From assembly GCA_937873665.1 (NCBI GenBank), contig CALMYW010000415.1, positions 1-14,420 of the forward strand: DNA of 14,420 nt. The letters run 5' to 3'. Under the pieces are notes generated by a model. It did not search any database and was not told the DNA's origin. It worked only from the letters and a program-made list of their open reading frames with translations. The translations under genes and the position numbers were made by a program. Positions 1 to 14,420 of this stretch are shown here, piece by piece (position 1 is the first letter of the stretch; each line of letters begins with the position of its first letter). The stretch is from an uncultured Sphingorhabdus sp. (GTDB lineage: Bacteria > Pseudomonadota > Alphaproteobacteria > Sphingomonadales > Sphingomonadaceae).

Positions 1-1454
1 ATGCCGGCGGTTACGTTGAACCGGTCGGTCACCGCATAGGTCGCCTGGCCATAGATGCCGAGTGCCTGGGTGTGAATGTAGCCGGGGGCGATGCTCTCGC
101 TGGCCGTAGTGTTCCCACCGAGGCCGATCACCTGATACGAGCGGTTCGATTCCATGCCCTTGTCGCTCATGTAGAACGCGCCGAGCGAATAATCGAGCTT
201 TCCGGCCAGCGCCTTGCCCGTGAGGTTTAGTTCCTCGGTGAAGACCTTCACCCAGTCCGGGCTACCGGTGAACGACTGATTGCCCGCGCCGGAATTGGCG
301 AAGGGCGTCGAACCAGGGTTCCATGACGACTGGAACGTGCGGCGCTTGTGGGCGCGGTAGGAGATGATGTTCTTCAGCGTGGCGTCGCCGAGATCGATCT
401 CGGTGCGGTTGTTCACGCCCCAGACGGTGAGCGTGAAGGCATCGTTGAGGTTGCCGCTCTCGCACTCGGTCTGGAACGGCACCGTCGACCCCGCGGTGCA
501 ACGCGACGGACGGTAGAGATCGAAGATCGAATCGGTGCCGAATTCGTTGGCGATGGCCCACGGCCCGCGGGCCTTCTGTTCGGCAAGCAAGCGCTGCGAA
601 TTGGCGACGCCGCCGAGCAGGGAGCCCGAGCCCCCATTGAGGAAATCGACCATGATAATCGCCGCCGGGGTCTGGCGCTGGTCGAAGTAGTCGGCCGAGA
701 GGTAGTTGCGCACGTTGCCGCTGTCGATGGTCAGCGAGGCGCGGAAACTGTCGTTGTTGGTCCCGTTCCAGCGGTCGCCGTTCAGCACGTTGGTGACATA
801 GCCCTTGCGCTCGCGATGCTCGCCCGCGATCCGGAAGGCGACGTTTTCGCTGAGCGGCATGTTCACTACGGCGGTGACGCGGCGCAGCGAATAGTCACCG
901 ATCGAGCCCGAAATGTTGCCAGTGTAACCGGCCGCCGGATCGGCCATCTTCGGCGTGACCACCAGCGCGCCGGCCGTGGAATTGCGGCCGAACAGGGTGC
1001 CCTGCGGCCCCTTGAGGATCTGCACGTCGTTAAGATCGTACATCATCTCGCCCACGCCATAGGGGTGGGCCAGCACGGTCTGGTTGTAGATGATCGAGGC
1101 CGAGTTCTCGAAGTAGATGTGGCCTTCCTTCTGGCGGATGCCGCGGATGCCGATGGTGAGAAGCTGCGGGTTGGTCGAGGCGCCGGCGATGATCACGTTG
1201 GGCGTCTGGCGCGAGAGCGAGACGAAGTCGGTCACGCCCTTCTTGGACAGGGTGTCGCCCGACATCGCGCTGACCGCGATCGGCACGGCCTGCTGGCTCT
1301 CCTCGCGTCGGCGGGCGGTGACGACGATGGCGTCAAGCCCGGTGTCGGCGCTGCTCGCAGCAGGAGCCGCGGTTTGCGCGAAGCTCACGCCGCCACCGGC
1401 AAGCGATGAACCCGCCGCAAGGCAGCTCACAAGGCGTCGAAGCGAAAGTCTCAT
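1..1454 (-). CDS. TonB-dependent outer-membrane receptor, N-terminal part (runs off left edge)
   Basis: This is an outer-membrane active-transport receptor that takes energy from the TonB-ExbBD complex. The frame stays open from the ATG at 1454 to the window edge, giving 484 codons of a protein that usually has 700-850. A GGGAGGAT ribosome-binding site lies just upstream of the ATG and decides the start. Residues 1-27 look like a Sec signal peptide ending near SFAQ. A TonB box (IVVTAR) lies at about 43-48. The plug domain follows and carries the classic GPQGTLFGRNSTAGAL block at about 149-164. The region after about residue 170 is barrel-like, with alternating aromatic and polar strands. The end of the barrel and the C-terminal aromatic residue are outside the window. 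The gene is divergent from a GntR regulator, which is its most likely controller. The plug type is common in sphingomonad receptors of unknown substrate, so the ligand cannot be named. Confidence 0.93.
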   Translation of the reverse strand, partial: MRLSLRRLVSCLAAGSSLAGGGVSFAQTAAPAASSADTGLDAIVVTARRREESQQAVPIAVSAMSGDTLSKKGVTDFVSLSRQTPNVIIAGASTNPQLLTIGIRGIRQKEGHIYFENSASIIYNQTVLAHPYGVGEMMYDLNDVQILKGPQGTLFGRNSTAGALVVTPKMADPAAGYTGNISGSIGDYSLRRVTAVVNMPLSENVAFRIAGEHRERKGYVTNVLNGDRWNGTNNDSFRASLTIDSGNVRNYLSADYFDQRQTPAAIIMVDFLNGGSGSLLGGVANSQRLLAEQKARGPWAIANEFGTDSIFDLYRPSRCTAGSTVPFQTECESGNLNDAFTLTVWGVNNRTEIDLGDATLKNIISYRAHKRRTFQSSWNPGSTPFANSGAGNQSFTGSPDWVKVFTEELNLTGKALAGKLDYSLGAFYMSDKGMESNRSYQVIGLGGNTTASESIAPGYIHTQALGIYGQATYAVTDRFNVTAG

Positions 1455-1475
1455 AGCTATCCTCCCACATTGTCC

Positions 1476-1489
1476 GGCTCTCACGAGCC
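1476..1489 (-). repeat. Small hairpin in receptor leader
   Basis: GGCTC and GAGCC form a five-base stem around a TCAC loop in the 5' leader of the left receptor gene, about 20 bases before its start codon. It could be part of a leader structure or an operator half. The stem is short and could be chance. Confidence 0.25.
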
Positions 1490-1504
1490 ATGATGCACGA
1501 AACA

Positions 1505-1532
1505 ATCTATAGATAGTTATATGATTATGCAA
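1505..1532. promoter_or_regulatory. Candidate promoter/operator between divergent receptor and GntR genes
   Basis: This AT-rich patch stands out from its GC-rich surroundings. It contains a perfect 10-base palindrome, ATCTATAGAT, at 1505-1514. Read on the minus strand, TTGCAT (1527-1532) and TATAGA (1506-1511) could be a -35/-10 pair for the receptor gene. Their spacer is only 15 bases, shorter than ideal. The palindrome would overlap that -10 element, which would suit repression by the neighbouring FadR-type GntR protein. The operator assignment is inferred from position and symmetry only. Confidence 0.35.
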
Positions 1533-1628
1533 TATGCTAGGAACAGGCCGCCAACGTCGTACAAATCTGCCCGACGGTGGGCCTTCGGCGGCATGGCGGG
1601 TGGCTATTCAGGGAGCGTGTGTTCTGGC

Positions 1629-2414
1629 ATGGACCACGGCATGAACTTCGCGAAGTCATCAGCGATCCGTGTTCCGAAAATGGCCGCGGTCATCGCGGCC
1701 AATATCCGCAAGCAGGTGTTGACCGGCACGCTCCAGCCGGGCGATTACCTGCCGCTCGAAACCCAACTTGCCGAACAGTTCACCGTCGCCCGCGCCACCG
1801 TCCGCGAGGCGATCCGCGTGCTCGAGGCCGAAGGGCTGGTGCAGATCTCGCGCGGTGCGCGGCGCGGCGCGCTGATCCTGACCCCCAGCGCCAATATCCT
1901 CGCGCGGACCATGGGGGTCGCCCTCCAGACCCGCCACGCCACGGTCCGCGACGTCTACGACGTGCGCACCGTGATCGAACCCTTCGCCGCCGGCCTCGCA
2001 GCCGAGGCCAATGCCGCAGAGGCCTCGCGACGCCTGCTCGCCGAAGTGGCGGTGGAGGCCGAGGTGATCGGGCGCAAGGATCACCGCCAGATGCAGCGCT
2101 TGATCGGCCGCTTCCACAAGACCCTGATGGACAGCACCGGCAACATCACCCTGTCGCTGCTCGGAGCCGCCCTCGAAGGACCGGTCAGCGGGCATATTTC
2201 TCTGCTCTATGACAAGAGCAATCAGGATGACTGGTGGGCCCAGATGACCCTATCGATGCGCTCGCGCAGCAAGCTCGCGCGGATCATTGCTGACGGCGAC
2301 GGCCAGACGGCGGCGGCGCACTGGACCACCCACATGGAGCAGACAGGGCGGATCTGGCTGTCCGGCATATCGCAGCACTCCATGGTCAACATCGTCGACG
2401 ACGACCCGATCTGA
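1629..2414 (+). CDS. GntR-family transcriptional regulator, FadR/FCD subfamily
   Basis: This is a DNA-binding metabolite-responsive regulator of 261 residues with the usual two-domain build. The N-terminal winged helix-turn-helix begins near IAANIRKQVLTG and includes LAEQFTVARATVREAIRVLE and a wing ending in GALI. The C-terminal all-helical FCD ligand domain begins near VRDVYDVRTVIEP. It shows the histidines expected of a metal-binding FCD pocket in FHKTLMDSTGN and HWTTHMEQTG. Family members typically sense carboxylic acids or sugar acids. In-frame ATGs occur at 1521, 1593, 1629, 1641 and 1680. 1629 is chosen because GGGAG lies 13 bases upstream and because 1521 would place the start inside the AT-rich control region. 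The exact start is uncertain. It is divergent from the left receptor gene and probably regulates it and itself. It is the last intact gene before a region of broken genes. Confidence 0.9.
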   Translation: MDHGMNFAKSSAIRVPKMAAVIAANIRKQVLTGTLQPGDYLPLETQLAEQFTVARATVREAIRVLEAEGLVQISRGARRGALILTPSANILARTMGVALQTRHATVRDVYDVRTVIEPFAAGLAAEANAAEASRRLLAEVAVEAEVIGRKDHRQMQRLIGRFHKTLMDSTGNITLSLLGAALEGPVSGHISLLYDKSNQDDWWAQMTLSMRSRSKLARIIADGDGQTAAAHWTTHMEQTGRIWLSGISQHSMVNIVDDDPI

Positions 2415-2541: not shown

Positions 2542-2667
2542 ATGTCGTGCCGCCCCAGACCCGCCAATCCGTTCCGCTAATTCAAGACCTCACCCGAGGT
2601 GATCCGCCTTGCGCTTTTGATGTACGTCCGTTTCCCGCTGAGCCTGTGCAACGTCGAGGACCTGCTG
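2542..2667 (+). pseudogene. IS6-family transposase, N-terminal fragment with internal stop
   Basis: Reading from ATG 2542, the translation gives PANPFR, a TAA stop at 2578-2580, then FKTSPEVIRLALLMYVRF and NVEDLL. This matches the N-terminal region of IS6-family DDE transposases, which typically read PFRYF, then a VIRLA..MYVRFPLS stretch, then a VEDLL segment that starts a helix-turn-helix. The stop sits where the family usually has tyrosine, so a single base change explains it. Similarity ends abruptly after VEDLL at 2667, and the DDE catalytic domain is absent. No IS6 terminal inverted repeat is recognisable in the roughly 80 bases upstream. The copy is dead and truncated. Confidence 0.7.
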
Positions 2668-2892
2668 GACGGTGTTCTCGTAATCGGCCCGGAAGCTGTG
2701 CGAATCGAAGAACCCAGCCTCGTCGATGATTCGTTACGCATCCACATGCAAGGGAGCGAAGGGCCGCGACCCTGCCAGGGCAGTCGTTCGCCGTCGAAGG
2801 TGTCAGCCTCAGCCGACAAGGCCTAGCGCTCGTGACCAATGCGGTATTCCTGGCAGGGCGGTCGTCCCCTCTTTGGAATCTGCGAGCGGAAT
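2668..2892. other. Unassigned relic DNA between two pseudogenes
   Basis: No gene could be recognised here on either strand. Short open frames exist: plus frame to 2826, containing VIGPEAVRIEEPSLVDD, and a minus frame containing DEAGFFDSHSF. Neither has a start with a ribosome-binding site or a family signature I can name. The junction at about 2667 with the IS6 fragment is abrupt, so this is probably DNA joined by deletion or recombination. Confidence 0.4.
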
Positions 2893-3226: not shown

Positions 3227-3760
3227 GATCTTGCGAGCAAACGCCCAGGGCCAACAGCTTTGCCCGACCTGGCGAGGGCTGCCATGGGGCTGATGGCAGA
3301 GCAGCTTGAGGGTGTGTAGATGTAGATCCAGGCCCTCAATCGCCGGCTGCTGGCATGGCACAAGCAGGACGCAACCAGTCAGCGTCTCGCGACCATCCCC
3401 GGTGTCTGCGTGATCAGTGCGACCGCCTTGGCCGCGTCTGTCGCAGACCCTGGCCAGTTTCGGTCCGGCCGTGAGTTCTCGGCTTCGCTGGGGCTAGTGC
3501 CGCGCCAGAACTCATCAGGCGGCAAGGACCGGCTTGGGCGCGTTTCCAAGATGGGCGATCGCTATTTGCGCAAGCTTCTGGTGGTCGGCGCGACATCCGT
3601 CGTGCGCCGGGCGAGCCACAGCAAGTCCAACCCATGGGTGGGCAAGCTGCTGGAGCGCAAGCCCACGCGGCTGGTCACGGTGGCCATGGCCAACAAGACC
3701 GCGCGGATCGTCTGGGCGGTGTTGGCGCGGGGCGAGGCGTACCGTTTGGCTGCCGCCTGA
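3227..3760 (+). pseudogene. IS110-family transposase, C-terminal half with two stops
   Basis: The preserved frame carries a TALPDLARAA segment, two in-frame TAG stops at 3317 and 3323, then LNRRLLAWHKQ and the IS110 C-terminal (Transposase_20) signature. That signature reads LATIPGVCVISATALAA, then FRSGREFSASLGLVPRQNSS, GGKDRLGRVSKMGDRYLRKL and LVVGATSVVRRA. This domain in IS110 enzymes carries the serine thought to act with the N-terminal DEDD domain. The DEDD half is missing altogether, so the protein cannot be active. An internal ATG at 3410 leaves a 116-residue open frame that could still be translated, but there is no evidence for this. The left boundary near 3227 is approximate. Confidence 0.85.
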
Positions 3761-3866
3761 TACCTATCGCCGCCCGCCACGCGGCGGCGTCGAACTGCAA
3801 GGGTGCCAATCGGAGTGATGATGACGATCTGAACGCGGCCGCATCGGCTGGAGCAACCCGCGGAGT

Positions 3867-3889
3867 TGTCGGAGCTTTGAGGCTCGACA
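3867..3889 (+). repeat. Hairpin in non-coding right end of IS110 relic
   Basis: TGTCG-G-AGC pairs with GCT-CGACA across a TTTGAG loop, giving eight pairs with one bulged G. It lies about 110 bases after the transposase stop. IS110-family elements encode a structured bridge RNA in a non-coding end. The IS1111 group carries it at the right end, so this hairpin could be a remnant of one. That assignment is inference. Confidence 0.35.
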
Positions 3890-4157
3890 GACTGATTGGG
3901 ATCCAGTCAGCGGACATCATCAGGGCCAGCGGTCACACCATGCCGCACCAACAGGCCGGACAGATGACCGCATTCTGTCAGATCAAATCAGCAAGCCAAA
4001 TTACCTCTTGCAGCGCGGGGGGGCATCCACAGATGACACCTCCATCCGCGACAGTTCGGCTTGCCTTGATTGGGGTAATGAGCCGTCGTTGCATCTCAAT
4101 TGTCCCGATAACCGGTGGTTGGAACGCATAGTCGTGCGACGCTCATCAGAATGCGCC

Positions 4158-4226
4158 TTCCTGGGTGAGCTCACGCGCTGTGCGCAGCCGCCTGATATTC
4201 CAGCCAATGCGCTGCCTGATCTCCAT
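4158..4226 (-). pseudogene. XRE-family regulator, N-terminal half (first 23 codons)
   Basis: From the ATG at 4226 the minus strand reads MEIRQRIGWNIRRLRTAREL followed by TQE. This is the typical first helix and turn of a Cro/C1-type (XRE) helix-turn-helix protein of the R..IG.NIRRLR..R.LTQE type. The frame is then lost: it continues GAF and two stop codons, TGATGA. An in-frame TGA lies 12 bases upstream, so 4226 is the only reasonable start. The missing rest of the domain is found on the other strand at 4748-4930, and the two halves join in frame at a shared GAAG. An 8-base inverted repeat surrounds the start codon. Confidence 0.75.
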
Positions 4227-4244
4227 CCCGGAAAGGGATCAGGC
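4214..4244. repeat. Inverted repeat flanking the start codon of the XRE N-half
   Basis: GCCTGATC (4214-4221) and GATCAGGC (4237-4244) are perfect 8-base arms with a 15-base spacer. The spacer contains the start codon of the minus-strand XRE fragment. As DNA it could be an autoregulatory operator of the XRE protein. As RNA it would fold into a hairpin that hides the start codon. An inner CCC/GGG pair adds stability. It has no following T-run, so a terminator is unlikely. Confidence 0.45.
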
Positions 4245-4321
4245 GATGCGACGGATTAGCCCACGACTCATAAGTCTCATTTCACTGGACTAGCCCAGAG
4301 CCTTCGAGCACAGCTCGGCCC

Positions 4322-4930
4322 ATGGCACGAGCAATCGGAACCCCCGTCCTGGTCAGCAGCTCAGGCAGTCAGAGCCCGCTTGAGCGCATCTATCTCGGGG
4401 TTGGAAACCACAACGAGAAATGGCTGCAGAAGCTCATCCACGCGCATCCCGGCATCCTGCCGATGGCCGAGATCGAGCCGGGGTTTGGCACCCTCATCCC
4501 GGCAGCGATGGAAGTGCCATGCGCCCATGGCCGGATCGACAACCTCTTCGTCAGCCCGTCAGGCGACATCGTCTTTGTCGAGACCAAGCTATGGCGCAAC
4601 GGAGAAAGCAGGCGCGAGGTTGTCGCCCAGGCTCTCGACTATGTCGCGGCGCTCACAGCCATGACGTTTGAAGAGTTTCAGGCGGTCACAGCCAAAGGGG
4701 AGCAGGCGCCCAAGCGGCTCTACGATCTTGTGAAGGACAATCCTGAAGACTTTGCCACCGACAGCGGATTTGATCGCGGTTACATCTCCGGGCTCGAGCG
4801 GGGTGTGCGAAACCCCTCGGTTCTGGTCCTCGAACGCCTTGCCAGGGCCCTCGAGGTTGATGTGAGTGAGCTATTCTCAATCGAGCAGGCGCGTGAGTTT
4901 GCGAAGGCGAGGGGCAGCCGGACGCGGTAG
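4322..4930 (+). CDS. Chimeric reading frame: PD-(D/E)XK nuclease-like N-terminus fused to XRE C-terminus
   Basis: This 202-residue frame is a fusion. Residues 1-142 look like a PD-(D/E)XK nuclease-like protein. RIDNLF gives an aspartate at 73, VFVETKLW gives the E-x-K pair at 87 and 89, and VAQALDY gives a glutamine at 103. This is the arrangement of RecB/NucS-like cores. EEFQAV then GEQAPKRLYDLVKDNPE follows, where related proteins normally continue for another 150 or more residues. From residue 143 the protein instead reads SGFDRGYISGLERGVRNPS and LERLARALEVDVSELF. This is the recognition helix and the rest of an XRE domain without its first helices. The join is at GAA 4745-4747. Only a weak purine stretch precedes ATG 4322. 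The nuclease half keeps its catalytic residues, but its fold is probably incomplete and the DNA-binding half is incomplete. It is likely a non-functional by-product, though the frame is intact. Confidence 0.6.
   Translation: MARAIGTPVLVSSSGSQSPLERIYLGVGNHNEKWLQKLIHAHPGILPMAEIEPGFGTLIPAAMEVPCAHGRIDNLFVSPSGDIVFVETKLWRNGESRREVVAQALDYVAALTAMTFEEFQAVTAKGEQAPKRLYDLVKDNPEDFATDSGFDRGYISGLERGVRNPSVLVLERLARALEVDVSELFSIEQAREFAKARGSRTR
4748..4930 (+). pseudogene. XRE-family regulator, C-terminal half
   Basis: The frame DFATDSGFDRGYISGLERG, then VRNPSVLVLERLARALEVDV and SELFSIEQ, is the second helix onward of a Cro/C1-type regulator, ending at the TAG at 4928-4930. On its own it lacks a start and the first helix. 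It completes the 23-codon N-terminal half found on the opposite strand at 4158-4226. Joined at the shared GAAG they make an 83-residue protein, the normal size for a single-domain XRE regulator such as a restriction-modification controller. At present it is translated, if at all, only as the tail of the nuclease-like chimera. Confidence 0.75.
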
Positions 4931-4982
4931 TAGCAGGCTGCGGGTCCTTTTCAGGGCAGGTGCGCCGGAGGTGATTGACGAA

Positions 4983-5021
4983 TGCGACCAAAAAGCTGAT
5001 CGCTGAGTTCAGTTGGTCGCA
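4983..5021. repeat. Perfect 9-base inverted repeat
   Basis: TGCGACCAA (4983-4991) and TTGGTCGCA (5013-5021) are exact inverted copies separated by 21 bases. It lies about 50 bases after the end of the XRE C-terminal half. It may be a bidirectional terminator-like hairpin, an operator or an old element end. No T-run follows. Confidence 0.45.
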
Positions 5022-5361
5022 GGCGTGCATCGAGGCACTCAGTCGCCCGATCTGCCACACAGCAGAATTGGACTGGCCCGACACAATGTTGAGCGTACAG
5101 ACCCACCGCTGGCAAACTCGGAAGCCTGCCCAAAAGCGCTAGGATCAGCATGCGGGATCAGCCCGAAGGTCGCTTGTGGCCGGAAATGAAGTAAAGGTTC
5201 GAATACGCCCCGCTCCGTCCAGCGGAATGAGGGGGTATTCGCGCAAAGTGGACTTAGGGTTCGACAATGCTGCGCTCCCGCCAAAATGTTCCGAAACGCG
5301 GAAGTGGCGAAGATTTCAGCTACTGGCGCAAAGGATGCTCTCCCTGGGGCATCGCAGCACG

Positions 5362-5376
5362 CCGGCAGAAAGCCGG
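5362..5376 (-). terminator. Possible weak terminator hairpin after aminotransferase gene
   Basis: CCGGC and GCCGG form a five-base stem with a five-base loop about 25 bases beyond the stop codon of the minus-strand aminotransferase gene. No T-run follows, so the role is doubtful. Confidence 0.25.
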
Positions 5377-5399
5377 TCAGTTGCCTGTCGCTGACAACT

Positions 5400-6656
5400 T
5401 CACGCCCGTCCGCGCGGCAACAGTCGCTGGAGCGCGTTGGCCAGGTGATCGCAATCGGCCAGCAGGTTCGCCAGCGCAGGAGTGACGCGGATGCAGGCTC
5501 CGCCAGCCAGGCCGTTACGGACCACTGTAAACACGCCGAATTCGTCCAGCAGACGGGCGGCGAGCTTCCCGTGCCCTTCAGCCGAACTGTCGCCTTTGAT
5601 CCGGAACGAGGTGATTGCGCCGTAGAGGCGAGGATCCGGCGGCGTAAGAATGTCGATAGCGGGATGCCCCTCAAAGGGGGCGACCCAACGGTCTCGTAAC
5701 GCGCGCAGGCGTGTCACGCGCCGCGCTGCGCCTACGGCATCCTGAAAGGCGATGGCCGCCGGAAGGGTCAGGACAGCCGCGAAGTCGACGGTTCCTGTGT
5801 GAACTAGCGCGGCGATTCCGCTTTCGCGGAGTGGATCAGAGGCGGGATCGCGGGCAAACTCGCCATAGCGGCCGCGCCGGACGATCATCGCCCCTACGCC
5901 CAGCGGCGCCCCGATCCACTTGTGCAGGTTGACCCCGATGAAGTCCGCACCAAGGTCCGGCAGGCGGAAATCGAGCTGGCCCAGGCTGTGTGCGGCGTCG
6001 ACGATCACCTCGGCGCCGCGGCTGCGGGCCAGTGCCGTGATCTCCGCCACGGGTAGGACCAGGCCGCTGCGATGGCCGAGATGGGTCAGCAGCACCAGCC
6101 GGGTGCGGGGGTGGGCGTGCAGCGCCGCCTCATAGGCATCGATCAGTCCCTGATGCGTCGCTGGATGGGGCAGGGCGATGCGCACCACCTCCACTCCGCG
6201 CCTTGCTGCAAGCGACGCCATGCAATTCTGCATCGTGTCGTAATCGTGGTCCGCCAGGATCATGGCATCGCCCGAACGCAGGGCCTCGTAGCCGAGGATC
6301 AGCGCCTTGAGCGCCTCTGTGGCATTGCGGGTGAGCACGACTTCATCCGTCTCAACGCCCAGCAGCTTGGCGACCGCGCGGTGCGCGGTGCGCAGGTCTG
6401 CACCCATCGCCCGCCGCGCATAGAAGCTGGTGTCGCGATTGACCCGCTCGACCTGACGCAGATATTCCTGCCGCACCGGGCGGGCCATGGCACCCCAGTT
6501 TCCGTGTTCCAGCTGGATCACGCCGGGCGGCCGATCGTAGAGCGCGGCGATCCGCTCCCAATCGGCCTTGCGCGGCGTGTCAGCCAGGGCGGCGTGCGGC
6601 AGGATCCCGGCCACGGGTGCTGCTGCCGCCGCAGCCAGGATCTCGCGCCGCTTCAT
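5400..6656 (-). CDS. Class V PLP-dependent aminotransferase (isopenicillin-N epimerase-like), Tat-type signal
   Basis: This 418-residue fold-type I PLP enzyme belongs to the class V aminotransferase/cysteine desulfurase superfamily, which includes isopenicillin-N epimerase. The cofactor lysine is K246 in GVNLHKWIGAP. The PLP-ring aspartate and the following histidine are in VDAAHS (D220, H223). The phosphate-binding segment is TRNATEAL (about 109-116), and the C-terminal domain ends in the family's CIRVTPALANLLADCD-type segment. The N-terminus MKRREILAAAAAAPVAG looks like a twin-arginine signal (KRREIL) with a likely cut after ALA at 25, so the folded holoenzyme would be exported to the periplasm. 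The start at 6656 lies 14 bases after the stop of the TonB-dependent receptor, so the two are probably cotranscribed. The substrate may be an amino acid, amine or peptide-derived compound brought in by the receptor. Epimerase, lyase and transaminase activities cannot be told apart from sequence. Confidence 0.9.
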   Translation of the reverse strand: MKRREILAAAAAAPVAGILPHAALADTPRKADWERIAALYDRPPGVIQLEHGNWGAMARPVRQEYLRQVERVNRDTSFYARRAMGADLRTAHRAVAKLLGVETDEVVLTRNATEALKALILGYEALRSGDAMILADHDYDTMQNCMASLAARRGVEVVRIALPHPATHQGLIDAYEAALHAHPRTRLVLLTHLGHRSGLVLPVAEITALARSRGAEVIVDAAHSLGQLDFRLPDLGADFIGVNLHKWIGAPLGVGAMIVRRGRYGEFARDPASDPLRESGIAALVHTGTVDFAAVLTLPAAIAFQDAVGAARRVTRLRALRDRWVAPFEGHPAIDILTPPDPRLYGAITSFRIKGDSSAEGHGKLAARLLDEFGVFTVVRNGLAGGACIRVTPALANLLADCDHLANALQRLLPRGRA

Positions 6657-6670
6657 CCCGAGCCCGCCGC

Positions 6671-9067
6671 TCAGAACCGGATGTCAAGGCGGGCGTAATA
6701 TTGGCCGCCGTCGGTGTCATAGGGGGCGTTGCGCGAATAGATCAGCCCGCGCACCGCCTGGTTGGTGGCCTCGTCCGGATAGGTGCCGAACAGGTTCTCG
6801 GCGCCGATCTTGACCGACAGGTTGCCGCCCAGCTTGCCCGCAACCGCCGCGTCGAACAGCGCCATGCCGCCGAAACGCTGGAACAGTTCGCCCGTCGCAT
6901 TGCCGCTGACGTCCGTCCACGCGTCGTAGAAGCGACCGCGCACCATCAGGTCGACTGGGCCCACGGCATAGGCGAGCGTGCCGGTTGCGTTGTGTTCGGG
7001 CAGGCGCTCCTGGAAGATCCGGGTCTGGGTGGTGTTGGCGATGGCCGCGGTCAGGCCGCTGCGCACCCGCGTCTGGTTATAGTTGTAGGCAAGCGTGGCG
7101 TTGAGCTGGCCCGGACCCACGTCGCGGCGCAGGTTGAACACCACGTCGACGCCGCGCGTGCGGGTGGCAAAGTCGTTGGTGAAATAGCGCACCGCAGTGA
7201 AGCGGTTAGGATTATCGAAGGCGGCGGGCACCGCGAAGGTGCGCGATTCCCCGAACCGGTCGTTCACGTCGATCTGGTATGCGTCGATGGTCACGCTCAC
7301 TCCGCCATCGGTGCGCCAGACAAGGCCAAGGGTCGCGCTTTTCGACTTTTCAGGTTGCAGCGGCTTGGCCCCGAGCGCGATCGCCAGCGGATCGCCCGGT
7401 GAAAGGCGCCCGGTGTTGAAGATCTGCATGGTGGTCGTGTCCAGACCCTGCGACACGCTGCGGCTGTTGGTCTGTCCCGGTGTCGGGGCGCGGAAGCCCG
7501 TTGCATAGGTGCCGCGCAGCGCCAGCCCGGCGACCGGTTCCACGCGCGCGGACAGCTTGTAGGTGAAGCTGTCGCCGAACGAGGAATAGCTTTCATAGCG
7601 GCCCGCCGCGCCGAGCGTCAGGATGGGCGCGGCCTTCCATTCAAGGTCGAGATAGCCTGCGTTGCTGGTCTGCTTGAAGGTACCTGCCTGCAGCGGCCCG
7701 AAGCCCGGAAAGCCGTTGGAATTGGGCGCCAGCCCGGTCGCCGCACCGGGGCCGACCGCCCAGGATGCCGGATCGCCCATGCCGACCTTGTAGGTTTCCT
7801 CGCGCCGCTCATACCCGAAAGCGGCGTTGAGCGGTTCCGCTCCGCCGAGGTCGATCCGGTAGACCATGTCGGCATTGAGCGTCAATTCCCGCTGCTCCAG
7901 CTGGCCGATGTAGAACGCCAGCGGGCTTTGCGGTCCGAGCGAGGCGTTGAGGCTCTCGGTCATGTCATAGTCGATCGTGCTGCGCCCGAAAGCGGCCGAC
8001 AGGTCATAGGTCAGCGCTTCGCTCAGCGCTCCTCTGAGGCCGCCGTTGGTCTGAAGGTCGTTGTAGTGGGTGGCGAAGCGCGGGGTGAAGCCGGTGGGAT
8101 AGACCGTGCGGAACGAGAAGCCGGGAAAGGCGCTGGAGGCGTTGAACACGCTGCCGGTCGTTGCCGGGTTGCGCCAGTTGAAGTCGGTCACGCCTTCGCC
8201 CTGCTGGGCGATGGCGAAGGCATGGAATTCGGCCTTGGGGGCCAGTTCAAAGCGCAGGCTGGCCGATCCCTTGATCGATTCGAGGTCAGGCTGGCCCCAG
8301 CGCTGGACCGGATTAGGCACGGCAAGCGTTGGATTGGCTGCCTGAAAAGCAATCGCATCGGGCCGCTGGCGGGTGCGCGAGGTGGCGTTCTGCTTGTTCC
8401 ATTCGCCAGTGAAGGAAAGGAAGCCGCGATCCCCCAGGCGCGCGCCGCCGCGCAGGCCGACCAGGTATTCGGTGCCATCGCCCGCGTAGTAGCGGGACAC
8501 CTGGCTCACCGCGTGCATGCCGGGCTTTTCGTCGAGGATGATGTTGAGCACCCCCGCAATCGCGTCCGACCCGTACTGGGCCGACGCACCGTCGCGCAGC
8601 ACTTCGATTTGGCCGACCGCAAGGTTCGGAATGCCCGCAAGGTCGGGCGCCTGCGCGCCGCGCGAGCCGAGCAGCGCCGAGCGGTGGAAGCGGCGTCCGT
8701 TGACCAGCACCAGCGTATGGTCCGCCGAGAGCGCCCGCAGCGTCGCCGGGCGGACGAAGGCCTGGCCATCGGCGGCGGGCAGGCGCTGGACGTTGAACGA
8801 GGGCAGCAATTGCGCCAGCCGGTCGTTGAGATCGCCCGAGACGCTCGATGCCACCAGATCCTGCGACAGGACGTCAACGGGTGCCATGGCATCGAACTGG
8901 GTGCGGGTCGCCTCGCGCGTGCCAGTGACGATGATGGCTTCGGACCCGTCGGCTTCGTTGGCATTGGCGTCAGCCGCAGTGTCAGAAGTGGATGCTTCAG
9001 CGGCGAAGGCCGGAGCCGACAGCGAAAAGGCAATGGCGATGGCGGACGCGAGATTAGATTTCTTCAT
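6671..9067 (-). CDS. TonB-dependent outer-membrane receptor, complete
   Basis: This is an outer-membrane gated channel of 798 residues. The start at 9067 is chosen over the upstream in-frame ATG at 9160. AAGGGG precedes it at good spacing, and translation begins with a clean signal peptide, MKKSNLASAIAIAFSLSAPA, with a cut near AFAA. A TonB box (IIVTG) is at about 45-49. The plug domain holds TLVLVNGRRFHRS (about 118-130) and the conserved VLRDGASAQYGSDAIAGVLN block (about 156-175). The rest is a 22-strand type barrel ending in YYARLDIRF, with the terminal phenylalanine recognised by the BAM machinery. The plug block places it in the broad receptor group often found beside catabolic enzymes rather than in classic siderophore receptors, but the ligand is not known. 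It is followed directly by the exported PLP enzyme. The upstream region has repeated TGCGAG motifs that may be regulatory. Confidence 0.95.
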   Translation of the reverse strand: MKKSNLASAIAIAFSLSAPAFAAEASTSDTAADANANEADGSEAIIVTGTREATRTQFDAMAPVDVLSQDLVASSVSGDLNDRLAQLLPSFNVQRLPAADGQAFVRPATLRALSADHTLVLVNGRRFHRSALLGSRGAQAPDLAGIPNLAVGQIEVLRDGASAQYGSDAIAGVLNIILDEKPGMHAVSQVSRYYAGDGTEYLVGLRGGARLGDRGFLSFTGEWNKQNATSRTRQRPDAIAFQAANPTLAVPNPVQRWGQPDLESIKGSASLRFELAPKAEFHAFAIAQQGEGVTDFNWRNPATTGSVFNASSAFPGFSFRTVYPTGFTPRFATHYNDLQTNGGLRGALSEALTYDLSAAFGRSTIDYDMTESLNASLGPQSPLAFYIGQLEQRELTLNADMVYRIDLGGAEPLNAAFGYERREETYKVGMGDPASWAVGPGAATGLAPNSNGFPGFGPLQAGTFKQTSNAGYLDLEWKAAPILTLGAAGRYESYSSFGDSFTYKLSARVEPVAGLALRGTYATGFRAPTPGQTNSRSVSQGLDTTTMQIFNTGRLSPGDPLAIALGAKPLQPEKSKSATLGLVWRTDGGVSVTIDAYQIDVNDRFGESRTFAVPAAFDNPNRFTAVRYFTNDFATRTRGVDVVFNLRRDVGPGQLNATLAYNYNQTRVRSGLTAAIANTTQTRIFQERLPEHNATGTLAYAVGPVDLMVRGRFYDAWTDVSGNATGELFQRFGGMALFDAAVAGKLGGNLSVKIGAENLFGTYPDEATNQAVRGLIYSRNAPYDTDGGQYYARLDIRF

Positions 9068-9091
9068 GATACCCCTTGGCCCCTGTTTTGC

Positions 9092-9172
9092 TGCAACTGC
9101 GAGCAATGCGAGTGGCCAGGAGTTGGCAGGCGAACGTTGCAGTTGTGCGTCTCGAATCATCGCAAATGCGAG
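9092..9172 (-). promoter_or_regulatory. Repeat-rich upstream region of TonB-dependent receptor
   Basis: Three copies of TGCGAG (9098-9103, 9107-9112, 9167-9172) and the near-palindrome TCGCA-AA-TGCGA (9160-9171) lie upstream of the receptor start. CTCGAATCATCGCAAATGCG (9151-9170) looks like an imperfect alphaproteobacterial Fur-type box (minus strand TTGCGATGATTCG). TGCAACTGC (9092-9100) and GCAGTTG (9139-9145) also form an inverted pair. An iron-responsive or other operator is inferred from symmetry and position only. Confidence 0.3.
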
Positions 9173-9286: not shown

Positions 9287-10294
9287 CTAAAGCGACTTAG
9301 CCTCGGCGATGGCGGCTATGCCGCGCTTGCCGTCGATCCGGTCCAGCTGAACGACGATGTCAATCACAGACGCGGCATATTCCAGCGTTTCCGATCGGGT
9401 CAGGCCGATGCCGGTCTGCATCGCCATTAGCGCGATCTGCTCAAGCGCACCGCGCGGCGTGTTGGCATGGACGGTGGAGAAGGAACCCGGGTGGCCGGTA
9501 TTGATCGCGCGCAGGAAGCTGATCGTTTCCGCACCGCGCAATTCACCCAGCACGATCCGGTCGGGCCGCAGACGCAGGGCAGCCTGCAGCAAGTCTGCAG
9601 AGGTTACACGAGCCTCGCCGAGCTCCCCTTTGACCGCGATAAGGCCGACCCCGTTAGCTCCAGGAAGTCGCAGTTCAGCCGTGTCTTCGACCAAGACGAC
9701 TCGCTCGTGCTGCGGAATCTCGTGCAGCATGGCATTGAGGAAAGTGGTCTTCCCGGTGGATGTGCCGCCCGAAATGAGGATTGTCCGGCGAAGTCGAATC
9801 GCCTCGCGCAGGAAGGCGATCGGCTCTGCCTGGGGGTCGGGCAGGGCAGGTTCCATGCGCGGTGCGATCGGCCCTCGATCGTAGGCGTCGAGAGGCAGGT
9901 CGAGCAGACGGTGACGGCGGATCGCCATTGCCCAGTGGCGCCGGGTGGCCGGCGGGCCGCACAACTGGATTCGCGCGCCATCGGGCAGGGTCGCGGCGAG
10001 CAGCGGATGTTCGCGGTTGATGCCCTGATGACTGATGCGCGCAACCTGCTCGGCCAGTCGCTGAAGCAGCTGGTCGGTCAGTTCGGGCAGGGCCACGCGC
10101 TGCATGCCGGGCTGGGCGGCATCTTCGATCCACAACTCACCCGGACCGTTGACCAGGATTTCGGTCACCGTCTCGCGATCAAGCCACGGCCGGAACGGGA
10201 CGAGATAGGCGTCGAGATAGACGCTGCGTGCAGGGGGAGTCAGTTCCTGCGCTGCCGTCTGCTGCGCCGTCAGGCGATGAAGGCCCGCGTTCAC
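9287..10294 (-). CDS. virB11: Type IV secretion ATPase VirB11
   Basis: This hexameric cytoplasmic ATPase drives pilus assembly and substrate transfer at the base of the secretion channel. It has 335 residues, the normal family length. It shows Walker A GGTSTGKTT at 176-184 (K182), an acidic box VLVEDTAEL at 200-208, Walker B RIVLGELRGAE at 246-256 and the histidine box TGHPGSFSTVHA at 266-277. The N-terminal domain contains VTEILVNGPGELWIE. The start is GTG at 10294, overlapping the virB10 stop by four bases (GTGA), which implies translational coupling. It is the last gene of the operon, and a hairpin follows its stop. Confidence 0.96.
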   Translation of the reverse strand: MNAGLHRLTAQQTAAQELTPPARSVYLDAYLVPFRPWLDRETVTEILVNGPGELWIEDAAQPGMQRVALPELTDQLLQRLAEQVARISHQGINREHPLLAATLPDGARIQLCGPPATRRHWAMAIRRHRLLDLPLDAYDRGPIAPRMEPALPDPQAEPIAFLREAIRLRRTILISGGTSTGKTTFLNAMLHEIPQHERVVLVEDTAELRLPGANGVGLIAVKGELGEARVTSADLLQAALRLRPDRIVLGELRGAETISFLRAINTGHPGSFSTVHANTPRGALEQIALMAMQTGIGLTRSETLEYAASVIDIVVQLDRIDGKRGIAAIAEAKSL

Positions 10295-11421
10295 TGGGTC
10301 GTCACCTGCGAGAAATCGAGGTCGCGTGCGGTGAAGACGCGGATAGGTTGTCCCTGACGAACGCGGACCGTCGGTCCGATCTGGCCCGACTGGCCGACTG
10401 CCGCTGCCGCTGCTGATTGGCCACCGCTGGCAATGACCACCCCGGCATTGCCGCCGATCGCGGAAAGACCGCCGACGACCGACAGCAGCATCGCCGAACC
10501 GAAGCGCTCGAAGAAATGGGAATCGACCTTGCCCGCAAGTCCGGTTTCGCCGCCAAAGCCGATGGCCGGAGAGCCGATGTTCACCGATACACCATCGGGC
10601 CGGATCAGGCGTGTCCAGATCACATAGGCCCGCTTCTGCCCGGCCTGAAGCCCGCTCTTGTACTGACCGATCAGCCGGGAGGAACGCGGCACCAGCACCC
10701 GCGCACCGTCGAACGAGCGCACATCTGTCGAAACCACCGCGCGGACATAACCGGGAACGTCGGTATCGATTGCGGTTTCGAGCACCGCCGGAATCAGCGT
10801 GCCCTGGGTCACGGTCGTGCGTGGATCGAAGCTGGCACTGGCCGTGGCCGAGCTGCCACCGACGCCTCCCAACCGGCTGGCGAAATCCTCGTTCGAATTG
10901 CCGGTTGGACTGGCTGCGGGGCCGGCGCCCGGAACGGCAGGGGTGACCGGAGCGACCAGCGGAGCAGGAAGCGCGCTGGCATCAAACACGACGGTGGGAG
11001 AAGCAGCCGGGTTGCTGGCGGGTCCGGTCAACGCCTGCGTCTGAGGCGGCGCGGCCAGCACAGCCTGCTCGGGCGGCGCAGCGGGGGCATTCCCCGGCTG
11101 GGTGATCGCTTCAGGCGGCACAGCCGGAGCGGCCTCTGGCGGAGCAACCGGGGCTGGCGCCGGCTGCGCGCCCGGCGCAGGCGCCTGCCCGACCTGCCCG
11201 TTGCGCGCGGCATCCATGCTCCACAATGTCACGGCGCCCAGCAACCCGACCAGACCTGCCCCGAGCGCCAGACCGAGACCTTCACGGCCGGGCTTGCGCT
11301 GGGTGACGGCTGGAAGCACGTTGCGGGTGGCGAGGTCGATGATCTCGGCCCCAGCGCGCTCGCGCGGATCCTGATCGTTGGCTGGATCGGGACGCTCGGC
11401 AAGGCGGTTGTTGAGACGCAT
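10291..11421 (-). CDS. virB10: Type IV secretion core-complex protein VirB10
   Basis: VirB10 spans the inner membrane, periplasm and outer membrane and transmits ATP-driven changes to the outer-membrane pore. It has 376 residues. It has a short cytoplasmic N-terminus, one membrane segment at about 48-68 (LGLALGAGLVGLLGAVTLW) and a long proline- and alanine-rich linker at about 80-165. The conserved C-terminal TrbI/VirB10 domain starts at GTLIPAVLETAIDTDVPGYV (about 207-226) and continues with RLIGQYKSGLQAGQKRAYV and RLIRPDGVSVNIGSPA. DSHFFERFGSAMLLSVVGG (300-318) marks the antenna helix region. It ends QGQPIRVFTARDLDFS. The ATG at 11421 is chosen because it lies four bases after the virB9 stop with AAGGA just upstream. 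An earlier in-frame ATG at 11526 would overlap virB9 by 100 bases. Confidence 0.96.
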   Translation of the reverse strand: MRLNNRLAERPDPANDQDPRERAGAEIIDLATRNVLPAVTQRKPGREGLGLALGAGLVGLLGAVTLWSMDAARNGQVGQAPAPGAQPAPAPVAPPEAAPAVPPEAITQPGNAPAAPPEQAVLAAPPQTQALTGPASNPAASPTVVFDASALPAPLVAPVTPAVPGAGPAASPTGNSNEDFASRLGGVGGSSATASASFDPRTTVTQGTLIPAVLETAIDTDVPGYVRAVVSTDVRSFDGARVLVPRSSRLIGQYKSGLQAGQKRAYVIWTRLIRPDGVSVNIGSPAIGFGGETGLAGKVDSHFFERFGSAMLLSVVGGLSAIGGNAGVVIASGGQSAAAAAVGQSGQIGPTVRVRQGQPIRVFTARDLDFSQVTTQ

Positions 11422-11425
11422 TGGC

Positions 11426-12256
11426 TTATTGGTCCTTGGCTGGGGCTTTGACCAGGCCGGTGCCCGGCAAGGCCGGGTTCCCAGCGCGGGCCAGGGTTTC
11501 GGGGTTGCCGGGAGAGAGATTTTCAAGCGTCGCGGAGTCCTTGCCTGACCGCAGCACGATCAGGTCATGTGTGCCTTCGACCACGATGACATCTCCGCGC
11601 ACCGCGAAATTGACCGGTCCTTCTGCCCCAGATTCATTGCGGATCTGGATCGCCGGGATCGGTGTTTTCGCCGGCCAGGCCAGATAGGTCGCGTTGCCAT
11701 CATCATAGATCCGCGACGGCAACAGGGCGCTCTTTCCCTTCATCTTCCACGCGAAATTCAGGTTGGCAGGATCGACGGGGCGCTCCTCCTGCGAGGCTGA
11801 CGCGGCCTGGCTTTCTTCCAGAGTAAGCGCGCTTGCCGCAAGTTGGGTGGAGGTGTCCGGCTTCTCCTCCTCCGGATAGGTGAAGCGCAGGACATAGACC
11901 GGCAGGCCCTGCGCTGCGGCGACCAGATCGAAAAAGTAGGTGCGGCGATCGGTGACCACGGTCATGTTGGTCCGCGCCTTGGCCGCCAGCGGTTTCACGA
12001 ATAGCAAGTTGGCCCGCTTGTTCGGCGTGACCTGCCAGCTGGTCGAATCGCCAATGGCGACATTCTCGATGTGCTCGTCTTCGGCGAAGGCGATGGTTGC
12101 CTGAACGCCGGTGCGGCCGTCGATCCGCACGACTTCATCGGGATTGAACAGACGCGTAGCCAGGCGCGCGTCAGCGCCTTGGGCCGGCACGCTTGCCAGC
12201 AGGGCAAGGCCAAGGATTGCGCTTGGCGCTGCTCGGTGCAGCAGAGGGCGGATCAT
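11426..12256 (-). CDS. virB9: Type IV secretion core-complex protein VirB9
   Basis: VirB9 forms the outer-membrane-proximal ring of the core complex with VirB10 and, where present, VirB7. It has 276 residues, with a signal peptide to about residue 26 (LALLASVPAQG). The N-terminal VirB9/CagX domain reads TRLFNPDEVVRIDGRTGVQA, IENVAIGDSTSWQVTPNK, NLLFVKPL and TNMTVVTDRRTYFF. A linker rich in Ser, Ala and Glu (about 134-160) is followed by the C-terminal domain from NFAWKMKG (about 167) with PSRIYDDGNATYLAW and GDVIVVEGTHDLIVLRSG. It has no lipobox, and no mature cysteine is apparent that would bond a VirB7 partner. The start overlaps the virB6 stop by four bases (ATGA). Confidence 0.95.
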   Translation of the reverse strand: MIRPLLHRAAPSAILGLALLASVPAQGADARLATRLFNPDEVVRIDGRTGVQATIAFAEDEHIENVAIGDSTSWQVTPNKRANLLFVKPLAAKARTNMTVVTDRRTYFFDLVAAAQGLPVYVLRFTYPEEEKPDTSTQLAASALTLEESQAASASQEERPVDPANLNFAWKMKGKSALLPSRIYDDGNATYLAWPAKTPIPAIQIRNESGAEGPVNFAVRGDVIVVEGTHDLIVLRSGKDSATLENLSPGNPETLARAGNPALPGTGLVKAPAKDQ

Positions 12257-13443
12257 CGAAGCATCTCCCGGGGATTGCGGGGCTGGGTTTGGAACCGGCT
12301 GCCAATGCCGCTGGCCCGGCGGGCACGGAGGGCAGGCAAGGCGGGGGCAGCTTGCGCGGCAGCGGTGACGATTTCGGTCCGGCTTGTTCGCACCGCTGAC
12401 ACGGAAGAAGCGTCAGTGGCCGGTTCCGCTGCGGGCGTCATGGTTTGGGCGAAGGCGACCGCGCTCCGACGTCCTCCTGTGTTGGTGATTGCCGCCGCCT
12501 GATCCTGAGGAAGAACCGTTACGGCGCCAGCGGCTTGAGCGGCGCTGCCGGACCTCGAGATTTCGGGGCTTGCCAGGCCGAATACCTGCCATCCTGACAC
12601 CATCGAAGCCGTTACCCGCATGATCATGGTCATCAGCGCGATATGGACCGCCGCGATCAGGAACAGCGCCATCGCCGCTCGCCCGTCGATCTGGCCTTCG
12701 CCGGATCGCAGCGCGCCAATCACCGGGACCAGCAGTTCCATCACGATGCCGCCGCCGGTAACGACGAACAGCGGGGTGGTCGCGGTCAGCACGACCGCGC
12801 GAAGCCAGCCGGCGGTGAGCCCGCGCGTGCCGGAAAACAGGGCAAAGACAACAAAGACGGGACCCACTGCCAGCAGGACTGCCAAAGCGATCCGCGCCGT
12901 TACCAGGATGCCCACGGTGCCAAGCAGCAACAGCAGCGCACCCAGCCACATGACGTTGGCGGGGGTGAAACTGCCAGAAGTTGCCCCGGAACTCGCACCC
13001 TGGGCGCTCTGGCCGCTGCTCGTCGCGACTTCGGCAATGGCCGCGAAAACGATGTCGATCCGATCGGCGAAGATCTGCGTGGCAGAGCCCCGCGCGCCGG
13101 TCAGGACGCTGGCGATCTGGTCAGGCGCGCCGATCGCAAGGTTCCAGACGACGCTCTGGTAGGCGATCCAGCTGGTCGCGAAAGTAAGCACCAGACCCAG
13201 GGTCATCATTCGCGGGGTCAGCGCAGATATGCCGAGCCGGCTGCGGCCGGTGAGCAGCGAGATTGCGAAGAAGGCTATATAGAGAGTGAGCAGGCCGGTC
13301 AGGGCCGGCACCAGTGCGCCATTGCCCCCGAACAGGCGGCCAAAGGCGGCTGCGGTCGTCTCGTTTGCCAGGCAATCGACCGCGCGCAGCGCCGGTGCGA
13401 CGCCAGACGAGGCATTGGCTGCGAGTTCGGCGCAGGTGCTCAT
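12253..13443 (-). CDS. virB6: Type IV secretion inner-membrane protein VirB6
   Basis: VirB6 is the polytopic inner-membrane channel subunit that contacts substrate DNA or protein. It has 396 residues and about six hydrophobic segments at roughly 43-64, 79-100, 163-183, 184-205, 215-245 and 257-276. Between the second and third segments there is a Ser/Gly/Ala-rich periplasmic loop (about 140-160). The last hundred residues (about 295-396) form a hydrophilic Ala/Ser/Arg-rich tail with no membrane segment, longer than in a basic VirB6 of about 300 residues. The ATG at 13443 overlaps the virB4 stop by four bases (ATGA) and starts MSTCAELA. An upstream ATG at 13461 is less likely. Assignment rests on topology and operon position more than on motif matches. 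Confidence 0.85.
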   Translation of the reverse strand: MSTCAELAANASSGVAPALRAVDCLANETTAAAFGRLFGGNGALVPALTGLLTLYIAFFAISLLTGRSRLGISALTPRMMTLGLVLTFATSWIAYQSVVWNLAIGAPDQIASVLTGARGSATQIFADRIDIVFAAIAEVATSSGQSAQGASSGATSGSFTPANVMWLGALLLLLGTVGILVTARIALAVLLAVGPVFVVFALFSGTRGLTAGWLRAVVLTATTPLFVVTGGGIVMELLVPVIGALRSGEGQIDGRAAMALFLIAAVHIALMTMIMRVTASMVSGWQVFGLASPEISRSGSAAQAAGAVTVLPQDQAAAITNTGGRRSAVAFAQTMTPAAEPATDASSVSAVRTSRTEIVTAAAQAAPALPALRARRASGIGSRFQTQPRNPREMLR

Positions 13444-14420
13444 TCGGCAGCCTCTGTCCAATGCGCAGATGGGTCCGCCGCATCACCAGGCCAGGGCTGT
13501 CCGGTCAGCGCGGGATACCAGGCCTGCGGGGCATCGCCATAGGCAGCGCGCAGCGCATCGAGCCGCCGCACGGTGCTTTCCCGGCCAGAAAGCAGCGCCA
13601 GAACCTCGGGCATGCCGGAAAGGTCAAGCCGCACCACCACCGATGCCCCGGGCTGGCGGATCAGGAAGCACCGGCTGTGCGCGGGCAGGGTGCGGATCAG
13701 GTCGAGTTCGTGGGCGGTGAGGGCGAAGCCGTCGCAATAGTCCTCGGCCCGCGCGCGGGCATTTGGCATGAAGATCATCGTCGCGGTCTGTTCTATCAGC
13801 GCGGTCGAAATGCGGCTGTCGAGCGCATCGCGCGCGCTCTGGGTGGCGAACCCGACGAGCGCGTTGCGCTTGCGCAGGGTCTTCAGCCAGTCGCGGATTC
13901 GGGCGGAGAACACCTCGTCGTCGAGCGCCTTCCAGCCCTCGTCGATCAGGATCATGGTCGGCTCGCCGTCCAGCCGCTCCTCGATCCGGTGGAACAGGTA
14001 CATCATCGTCGGCGTGCGCAGCCGGGGCGCTTCCAGCAGGGCGGTCATGTCGAAGCCCAGGGTGCGCGCCGACAGGTCCAGCCGGTCCTCTGCGTTGTCG
14101 AACAGCCAGCCGTTCTCGCCCCCACGGATCCAGGCATCGAGCCGGCTGGCAAGATCGCCCGGTTGTGGGCGGCGCGCCCCGGCGAGCAGTTCGCGGAAGT
14201 GGGTCAGGCGGCGCAGCGAGGGGTCGTTGGCATAAGCGGCGTCGACCGCCTCTGCGATCATGGCCGCCTCTTCAGGGCCATCGGCAGCGAGCAACACCCC
14301 CAGCCAGTCGCGCAGGAAGGCGCGGTTGACCGGGGTGTCGGGCAGGGCGAGCGGGTTGAAGCCGCTGGGGCTGCCTGCCGCGATCCGGCTGTAGGTGCCG
14401 CCGATCCCGCGCACGAACAC
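13440..14420 (-). CDS. virB4: Type IV secretion ATPase VirB4, C-terminal part (runs off right edge)
   Basis: VirB4 is the large inner-membrane-associated ATPase that powers pilus biogenesis and substrate passage. The window holds the last 326 codons of a protein that is usually about 800 residues. Walker B is TMILIDEGWKALDD at 155-168, followed by IRDWLKTLRKRNALVGFATQ (175-194), whose FATQS is the typical VirB4 motif. IEQTATMIFMPNARA (209-223) and FALTAHELDLIRTL (232-245) follow, and SRCFLIRQPGASVVVRLDLS (249-268) matches the family's C-terminal sheet. Walker A lies outside the window. The stop overlaps the next gene's start, so the five genes form one transcript. Confidence 0.95.
   Translation of the reverse strand: MFVRGIGGTYSRIAAGSPSGFNPLALPDTPVNRAFLRDWLGVLLAADGPEEAAMIAEAVDAAYANDPSLRRLTHFRELLAGARRPQPGDLASRLDAWIRGGENGWLFDNAEDRLDLSARTLGFDMTALLEAPRLRTPTMMYLFHRIEERLDGEPTMILIDEGWKALDDEVFSARIRDWLKTLRKRNALVGFATQSARDALDSRISTALIEQTATMIFMPNARARAEDYCDGFALTAHELDLIRTLPAHSRCFLIRQPGASVVVRLDLSGMPEVLALLSGRESTVRRLDALRAAYGDAPQAWYPALTGQPWPGDAADPSAHWTEAAE

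Follow-up and report, generated by a model that had tools for sequence, protein, structure and literature searches.

The closest described systems are those of the controller (C) proteins of restriction-modification (R-M) loci. Most C systems by far have their controller gene placed upstream of the endonuclease gene and in the same orientation (PMC3850674), and a GACT/AGTC palindrome is described for C.PvuII-like boxes (PMC4824078). Fusions of both functions also occur: the CR.NsoJS138I protein joins nuclease and controller sequence in one frame and is described as active both as controller and as endonuclease (PMC3850674). The locus studied here lies in 14,420 nucleotides of DNA from an uncultured Sphingorhabdus sp. 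(contig CALMYW010000415.1, the window hereafter), where a Cro/C1-type regulator gene is split in two and its larger piece is fused behind a truncated nuclease-like gene. The rejoined regulator is like the C proteins C.AhdI and C.BclI in sequence, in its size of 83 residues and in the presence of a GACT/AGTC palindrome at its own promoter, but it differs from C systems in being divergent from the nuclease rather than upstream of it and co-oriented, and it is broken in the window. The fusion resembles the CR.NsoJS138I type in its single frame, yet its nuclease part comes first, neither part is a whole domain, and it appears to have been made through an inversion. The regulator is cut at codon 23 and the nuclease at codon 142, with the pieces rejoined at a shared GAAG; the likely explanation is one microhomology-mediated inversion of ~590 bp with loss of the nuclease 3' part.

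The locus is laid out as follows, L001 being the related locus in a metagenome-assembled genome of Erythrobacter sp. MSM4:

4157-4160, no strand: left breakpoint CTTC, the inverted copy of the shared GAAG (blastn against L001 and direct reading)
4226-4158, minus strand: regulator 5' part, codons 1-23, ending TQE (direct reading and alignment to relatives)
4227-4321, no strand: divergent intergenic region of 95 bp with a C-box-like operator (sequence comparison with relatives)
4322-4747, plus strand: nuclease-like gene 5' part, 142 codons (homology; 79% identical to L001 residues 1-142)
4745-4748, no strand: right breakpoint GAAG, common to nuclease and regulator (blastn against L001 and direct reading)
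4748-4930, plus strand: regulator 3' part, codons 24-83 and stop (shares one frame with the preceding nuclease part; covers 13-55 of HTH_3)

The minus-strand piece translates as MEIRQRIGWNIRRLRTARELTQE and, beyond the cut, reads GAF before a stop. The plus strand from 4748 translates as DFATDSGFDRGYISGLERG... up to the stop at 4930. The fused frame thus spans 4322-4930 (plus strand, 202 codons), with the 23-codon regulator piece 95 bp to its left on the opposite strand. A sequence-only reading of this DNA had proposed that the two regulator pieces rejoin in frame into 83 residues across a 4-base GAAG common to both cuts; direct reading agrees with it base for base, with zero bases gained or dropped, and the arrangement goes beyond coincidence. 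Window positions 4157-4748 match L001 4837-5427 on the plus strand (blastn, 75.5% identity) and positions 4745-4863 match L001 4840-4722 on the minus strand (75.6%). Since these two matches meet at one GAAG, both cuts are placed there, and their opposite senses indicate that the central piece is colinear with L001 and that the regulator 3' part has moved to its far end in inverted orientation. The identical regulator cut is seen against L006 (blastn) and against L002 and L005 (tblastx). When cuts were placed at random in the L001 nuclease and regulator genes, at least 4 bases were shared in 1.95% of 200,000 draws.

Rejoined, the regulator covers positions 1-55 of the 55 positions of the Pfam family HTH_3 (57.1 bits). 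Its 3' half alone reaches positions 13-55 (39.8 bits) and its 5' half alone (23 residues) has no Pfam match; in the present DNA no one protein carries the whole helix-turn-helix (HTH) domain, the first 12 positions being missing from the regulator part. The 5' piece can be aligned with MDIRKRIGWNVRRLRAQRELTQE in L001 and L002, as well as with the translations of five further relatives, and both halves match one protein in the relatives, so that the possibility of their belonging to different families, raised in the earlier reading, falls away. Judged by these alignments, the pieces are parts of one Cro/C1-type regulator. This regulator resembles R-M controller proteins: it matches the solved C proteins C.AhdI (E = 3.1e-12) and C.BclI (1.9e-9), structure 3clc, named an R-M controller protein and presumably C.Esp1396I (2.5e-9), and the PADLOC profile Control_protein (5.5e-17). 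At its own promoter lies a C-box-like palindrome, a candidate operator, which in the window reads GACTCATAAGTC at 4265-4276, then TCATTTCACTGGACT. The GACTTATAAGTC palindrome is present in L001, L002, L010, L011 and L044, and the wider operator motif in 12 of the 26 scanned sequences, the window counted; the window's exact 27-base operator string (one position open) was found in none of 110 loci.

The nuclease part retains the catalytic motif residues D73, E87-x-K89 and Q103-xxx-Y107, and the D...ExK motif together with the predicted fold places the protein among the PD-(D/E)XK nucleases. Its structural model is NucS/EndoMS-like, but the family differs from NucS/EndoMS and other PD-(D/E)XK nucleases in sequence: it has no Pfam match, its profile reaches NucS only at E = 0.023, and Foldseek gave no match below E = 0.001. 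The PADLOC candidate PDC-S11, for which the literature search found no description of a mechanism, matches the nuclease N-part (1e-6 for L001, 5.8e-8 for the window fusion), over profile positions 24-111 of 358 only. The predicted core strands 162-169 and 190-201 fall beyond the cut at codon 142, which accordingly lies, in the model, inside the catalytic fold, with the last core strands lost.

A match to the nuclease was found in 27 of the 397 genomes of the family. Where identity was at least 50% (seven genomes), a divergent regulator adjoins it in 7 of 7; with the weaker-match genomes G019 and G289 included, this is the case in 9 of the 27. Two genomes added from other searches, G002 and G631, bring those with the pair considered here to eleven. 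Eight of these have a long stop-free nuclease frame (G001, G302, G195, G232, G165, G129, G082 and G631); as for the remaining three, the nuclease is cut short in G002, carries a TGA in G289 and was matched only in part in G019. In L001 the nuclease gene occupies the plus strand (388 codons from the ATG homologous to that of the window) and diverges from the regulator gene on the minus strand (81 codons from the start homologous to that of the window, 99 with an upstream start). The gene starts are 94-96 bp apart in the six loci worked out (L001, L002, L009-L012) and 95 bp apart in the window, and all regulator matches located beside a nuclease point away from it. Relatives with the two genes divergent and about 90 bp between their starts had been anticipated from the window alone, as had the cutting of the nuclease-like gene by the same event that made the chimera, which is likewise supported. 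These comparisons support a divergent pair, with ~95 bp between the starts, as the ancestral state.

Several scenarios may explain how this pair was broken. Microhomology-mediated deletion-inversion is a general class of repair scar, and the locus is like it in its short junction homology, its one inverted piece and its flanking loss, and departs from it in that the third breakpoint is not seen. The repair path, which we infer, may have begun with DNA breaks at the GAAG of the regulator and again at that of the nuclease. The 590-bp piece, with both promoters and both 5' ends, would then have been reinserted inverted, its nuclease end pairing with the regulator 3' end over 4 bases and its regulator end being joined to a third site further left, with loss of nuclease codons 143 to ~390. 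A plain inversion would have left these codons to the left of 4157 on the minus strand. A tblastn search with the whole L001 nuclease did not find them in the window, from which the reciprocal junction is absent. The earlier claim of a small single inversion therefore holds for the inversion at the shared GAAG and fails for a simple reciprocal one: a third breakpoint with DNA loss, or a second loss ending at the same base, is needed. Since the left-hand regulator sequence ends exactly where the right-hand part begins, one event involving three breakpoints is a simpler account than two separate ones, an inversion and then a deletion that ended at the same base.

Alternatively, a simple reciprocal inversion could have come first, with the nuclease 3' half disappearing afterwards through a separate deletion or the activity of an insertion sequence (IS). 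Ordinary steps would suffice for this, the end of an IS110 remnant is 119 bp away from the breakpoint, and nuclease genes are broken in L002 and L005 too. Yet the deletion would have had to end 0-4 bases from the inversion breakpoint while the regulator was kept exactly to the GAAG, and there is no clear nuclease remnant within the 119 bp, so that this order of events seems rather improbable. The left flank comprises two features:

3240-4038, plus strand: IS110-family remnant (Transposase_20), 5'-truncated, start approximate (Pfam and copies elsewhere)
4039-4156, no strand: ~118-119 bp where a simple inversion would place the nuclease 3' half (no matching source found)

The IS110 remnant, in which an in-frame TAG is read near 3317, ends at about 4038; of its copies elsewhere, several stop at the base that corresponds to 4036-4038 and three extend to 4044-4060. 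A nuclease remnant left of the cut was sought and rejected by tblastn, by a hidden Markov model and by family-wise shuffles. The 119-bp flank scores 17 against the closest relative, where a positive control of the same length taken just before the right cut scores 88, and the nuclease model gives at most 0.1 bits on the translated flank as against 230 and 242 bits on the corresponding stretches of L001 and L012. The DNA was also compared with that of five relatives in 20 shuffle tests: in 18 of these at least 9 of 200 shuffles attained the score, and in two, both with L012, none did; in the family-wise test with 11 relatives, the maximum was reached by 14 of 300 shuffles and the sum by 118 of 300. 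Two other origins were discarded. In a transposition product an IS end would be expected at a junction, but the nuclease-regulator junction has none, the IS110 remnant stops at ~4038 and no recognised IS abuts either junction. A template switch at a replication fork, giving an inverted duplication, predicts a full regulator at the left, where the copy ends exactly at the GAAG.

Some observations weigh against a single inversion with loss of the nuclease end. A flank stretch of 28 columns (23 identical, 2 mismatches and 3 gap columns) resembles L012 nuclease codons near 280; it beat 200 of 200 simple shuffles, and its score was reached by 14 of 300 dinucleotide shuffles when 11 relatives were compared, leaving it as a faint hint of a decayed nuclease remnant in the 119 bp. 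These 119 bp are without known origin: positions 4020-4160 matched one of the 397 related genomes, at the IS110 end only, and neither 4030-4160 nor 4930-5400 had plasmid matches. No close relative was found with the pair and the same flanks, so that neither the third site nor the order in which the steps occurred is seen. Lastly, the model of the fusion has a low predicted local distance difference test score (pLDDT, 55.6) compared with that of an intact relative (86.3), but the alignments differ (20 and 25 rows), which makes the comparison uncontrolled and only suggestive.

Two unrelated joins made in silico during assembly could also have produced the arrangement, and the left junction is indeed without a relative. 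The fused protein is nevertheless listed in a protein database as one cluster on 3 contigs that may not be independent, the longest of 22,322 bp, a listing that speaks against a single misassembly and not for selection, and the cut is a precise one that keeps the reading frame and falls at a plausible microhomology. An artefact is therefore quite improbable.

Even less probable is a functional fusion, maintained by selection as a nuclease N-part with a helix-turn-helix part. The catalytic motifs of its 202-codon open frame are retained, together with its start and the operator region, C-endonuclease fusions are known in nature (PMC3850674), and the nonsynonymous divergence (dN) of both parts is not raised: for all three pieces, dN between the window and the relatives falls within the range among the relatives (L066 left out of the nuclease table; synonymous divergence is mostly saturated). 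The fusion, however, keeps 142 of ~390 nuclease residues and 60 of 83 regulator residues, with the final core strands of the predicted nuclease domain gone and the HTH missing its beginning; the confidence of its model is low, and it forms a single protein cluster. The described CR.NsoJS138I, for its part, is active as both proteins (PMC3850674). With the regulator beheaded and the predicted catalytic fold of the nuclease stripped of its final strands, the fusion of 202 residues is probably dead, and probably neither protein works. The absence of visible extra decay in the pieces suggests that the break is probably recent. The fused arrangement was not met elsewhere, as would be expected of a split that is not conserved: among 45 protein matches only the window's own joins an HTH domain to the nuclease part (by Pfam column and coverage, with 18 of the 45 sequences read), none spans both parts among the matches listed from 396 genomes of the order and 114 of the genus, two overlapping sets in which most matches are HTH proteins not checked singly, and the fusion was not found in viral contigs.

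A phase-variable segment switching regulator and nuclease on and off is very unlikely: promoters and 5' ends do lie inside the segment and one orientation would restore the regulator, but the inverted homology of its ends amounts to 4 bp (the 25 repeat pairs listed include none that is longer here), and the 16 window frames put through Pfam contain no invertase and only the truncated IS110 transposase; the other orientation would not restore a nuclease whose 3' half is gone, and no relative with these flanks was found in the other state. The same lack of an invertase and of longer inverted homology makes it unlikely that both orientations coexist in a culture, a possibility raised in the earlier reading.

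One repair event of the favored kind, an inversion with loss of the nuclease end, could kill nuclease and controller together and leave an in-frame chimeric gene, of which this locus would be a clean example. The rearranged locus itself would be ordinary decay with an unusually legible scar. The more interesting lead is the intact family, in which a C-protein-like regulator diverges from NucS-like or Mrr-like nucleases: neither this pair nor a nuclease-controller fusion produced by inversion was recognised in the literature search. In the intact relatives, the regulator probably is a C-protein-like autoregulator that controls itself and the PD-(D/E)XK nuclease from the shared operator. The genes that diverge from related regulators vary. 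L045 has an Mrr_cat-type nuclease (399-1346, minus strand) divergent from a related regulator (~1426-1653, plus strand) with the operator motif, L006 has a 297-residue protein without a Pfam match, and L044 an uncharacterised gene (by eye). In L002 and L005 the nuclease is broken and the regulator frame is open. Of 10 loci from relatives, 6 have an N6_N4-type methyltransferase at most 1.5 kb from the nuclease (L001:7096-8217, with a ParB domain, L002:6698-8299, L093, L097, L099 and L100), L095 among the other four having only 275 bp of flank; no such gene was found in the window. The association of regulator and operator with differing divergent genes, and the broken nucleases beside open regulators, suggest a portable controller cassette. 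Regulator and operator might then, tentatively, drive divergent nucleases that can replace one another (a NucS-like one in this locus, one of the Mrr_cat type in L045), with a ParB-type methyltransferase alongside. This would be an R-M-like system of divergent layout, absent from the literature searched, in which a single inversion spanning the common promoter could disable nuclease and controller at once; it remains a doubtful extension.

In L002 (5001-5321, plus strand) the nuclease stops at a TAG inside the QxxxY helix, and by eye the DNA behind this TAG is similar to the 3' end of the gene in L001, suggesting that most of the L002 gene was deleted. DUF5681-like genes occur in L002, L093, L044 and L045. 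Beside the L006 regulator lies an IS6-family transposase gene, and window positions 2550-2671 are 76% identical to the DNA where that gene starts. On the minus strand, positions 9287-14420 hold the conjugative transfer genes T2SSE, TrbI, CagX, TrbL and TraG P-loop (Pfam), so that the window probably belongs to a plasmid or integrative element. A class V aminotransferase gene and, beside it, one for a TonB-dependent receptor (5400-9160, minus strand) separate these genes from the wrecked pair and are a possible cargo. An open-ended frame of 510 codons at 3-1532 (minus strand) resembles, by eye only, a second TonB-dependent receptor.
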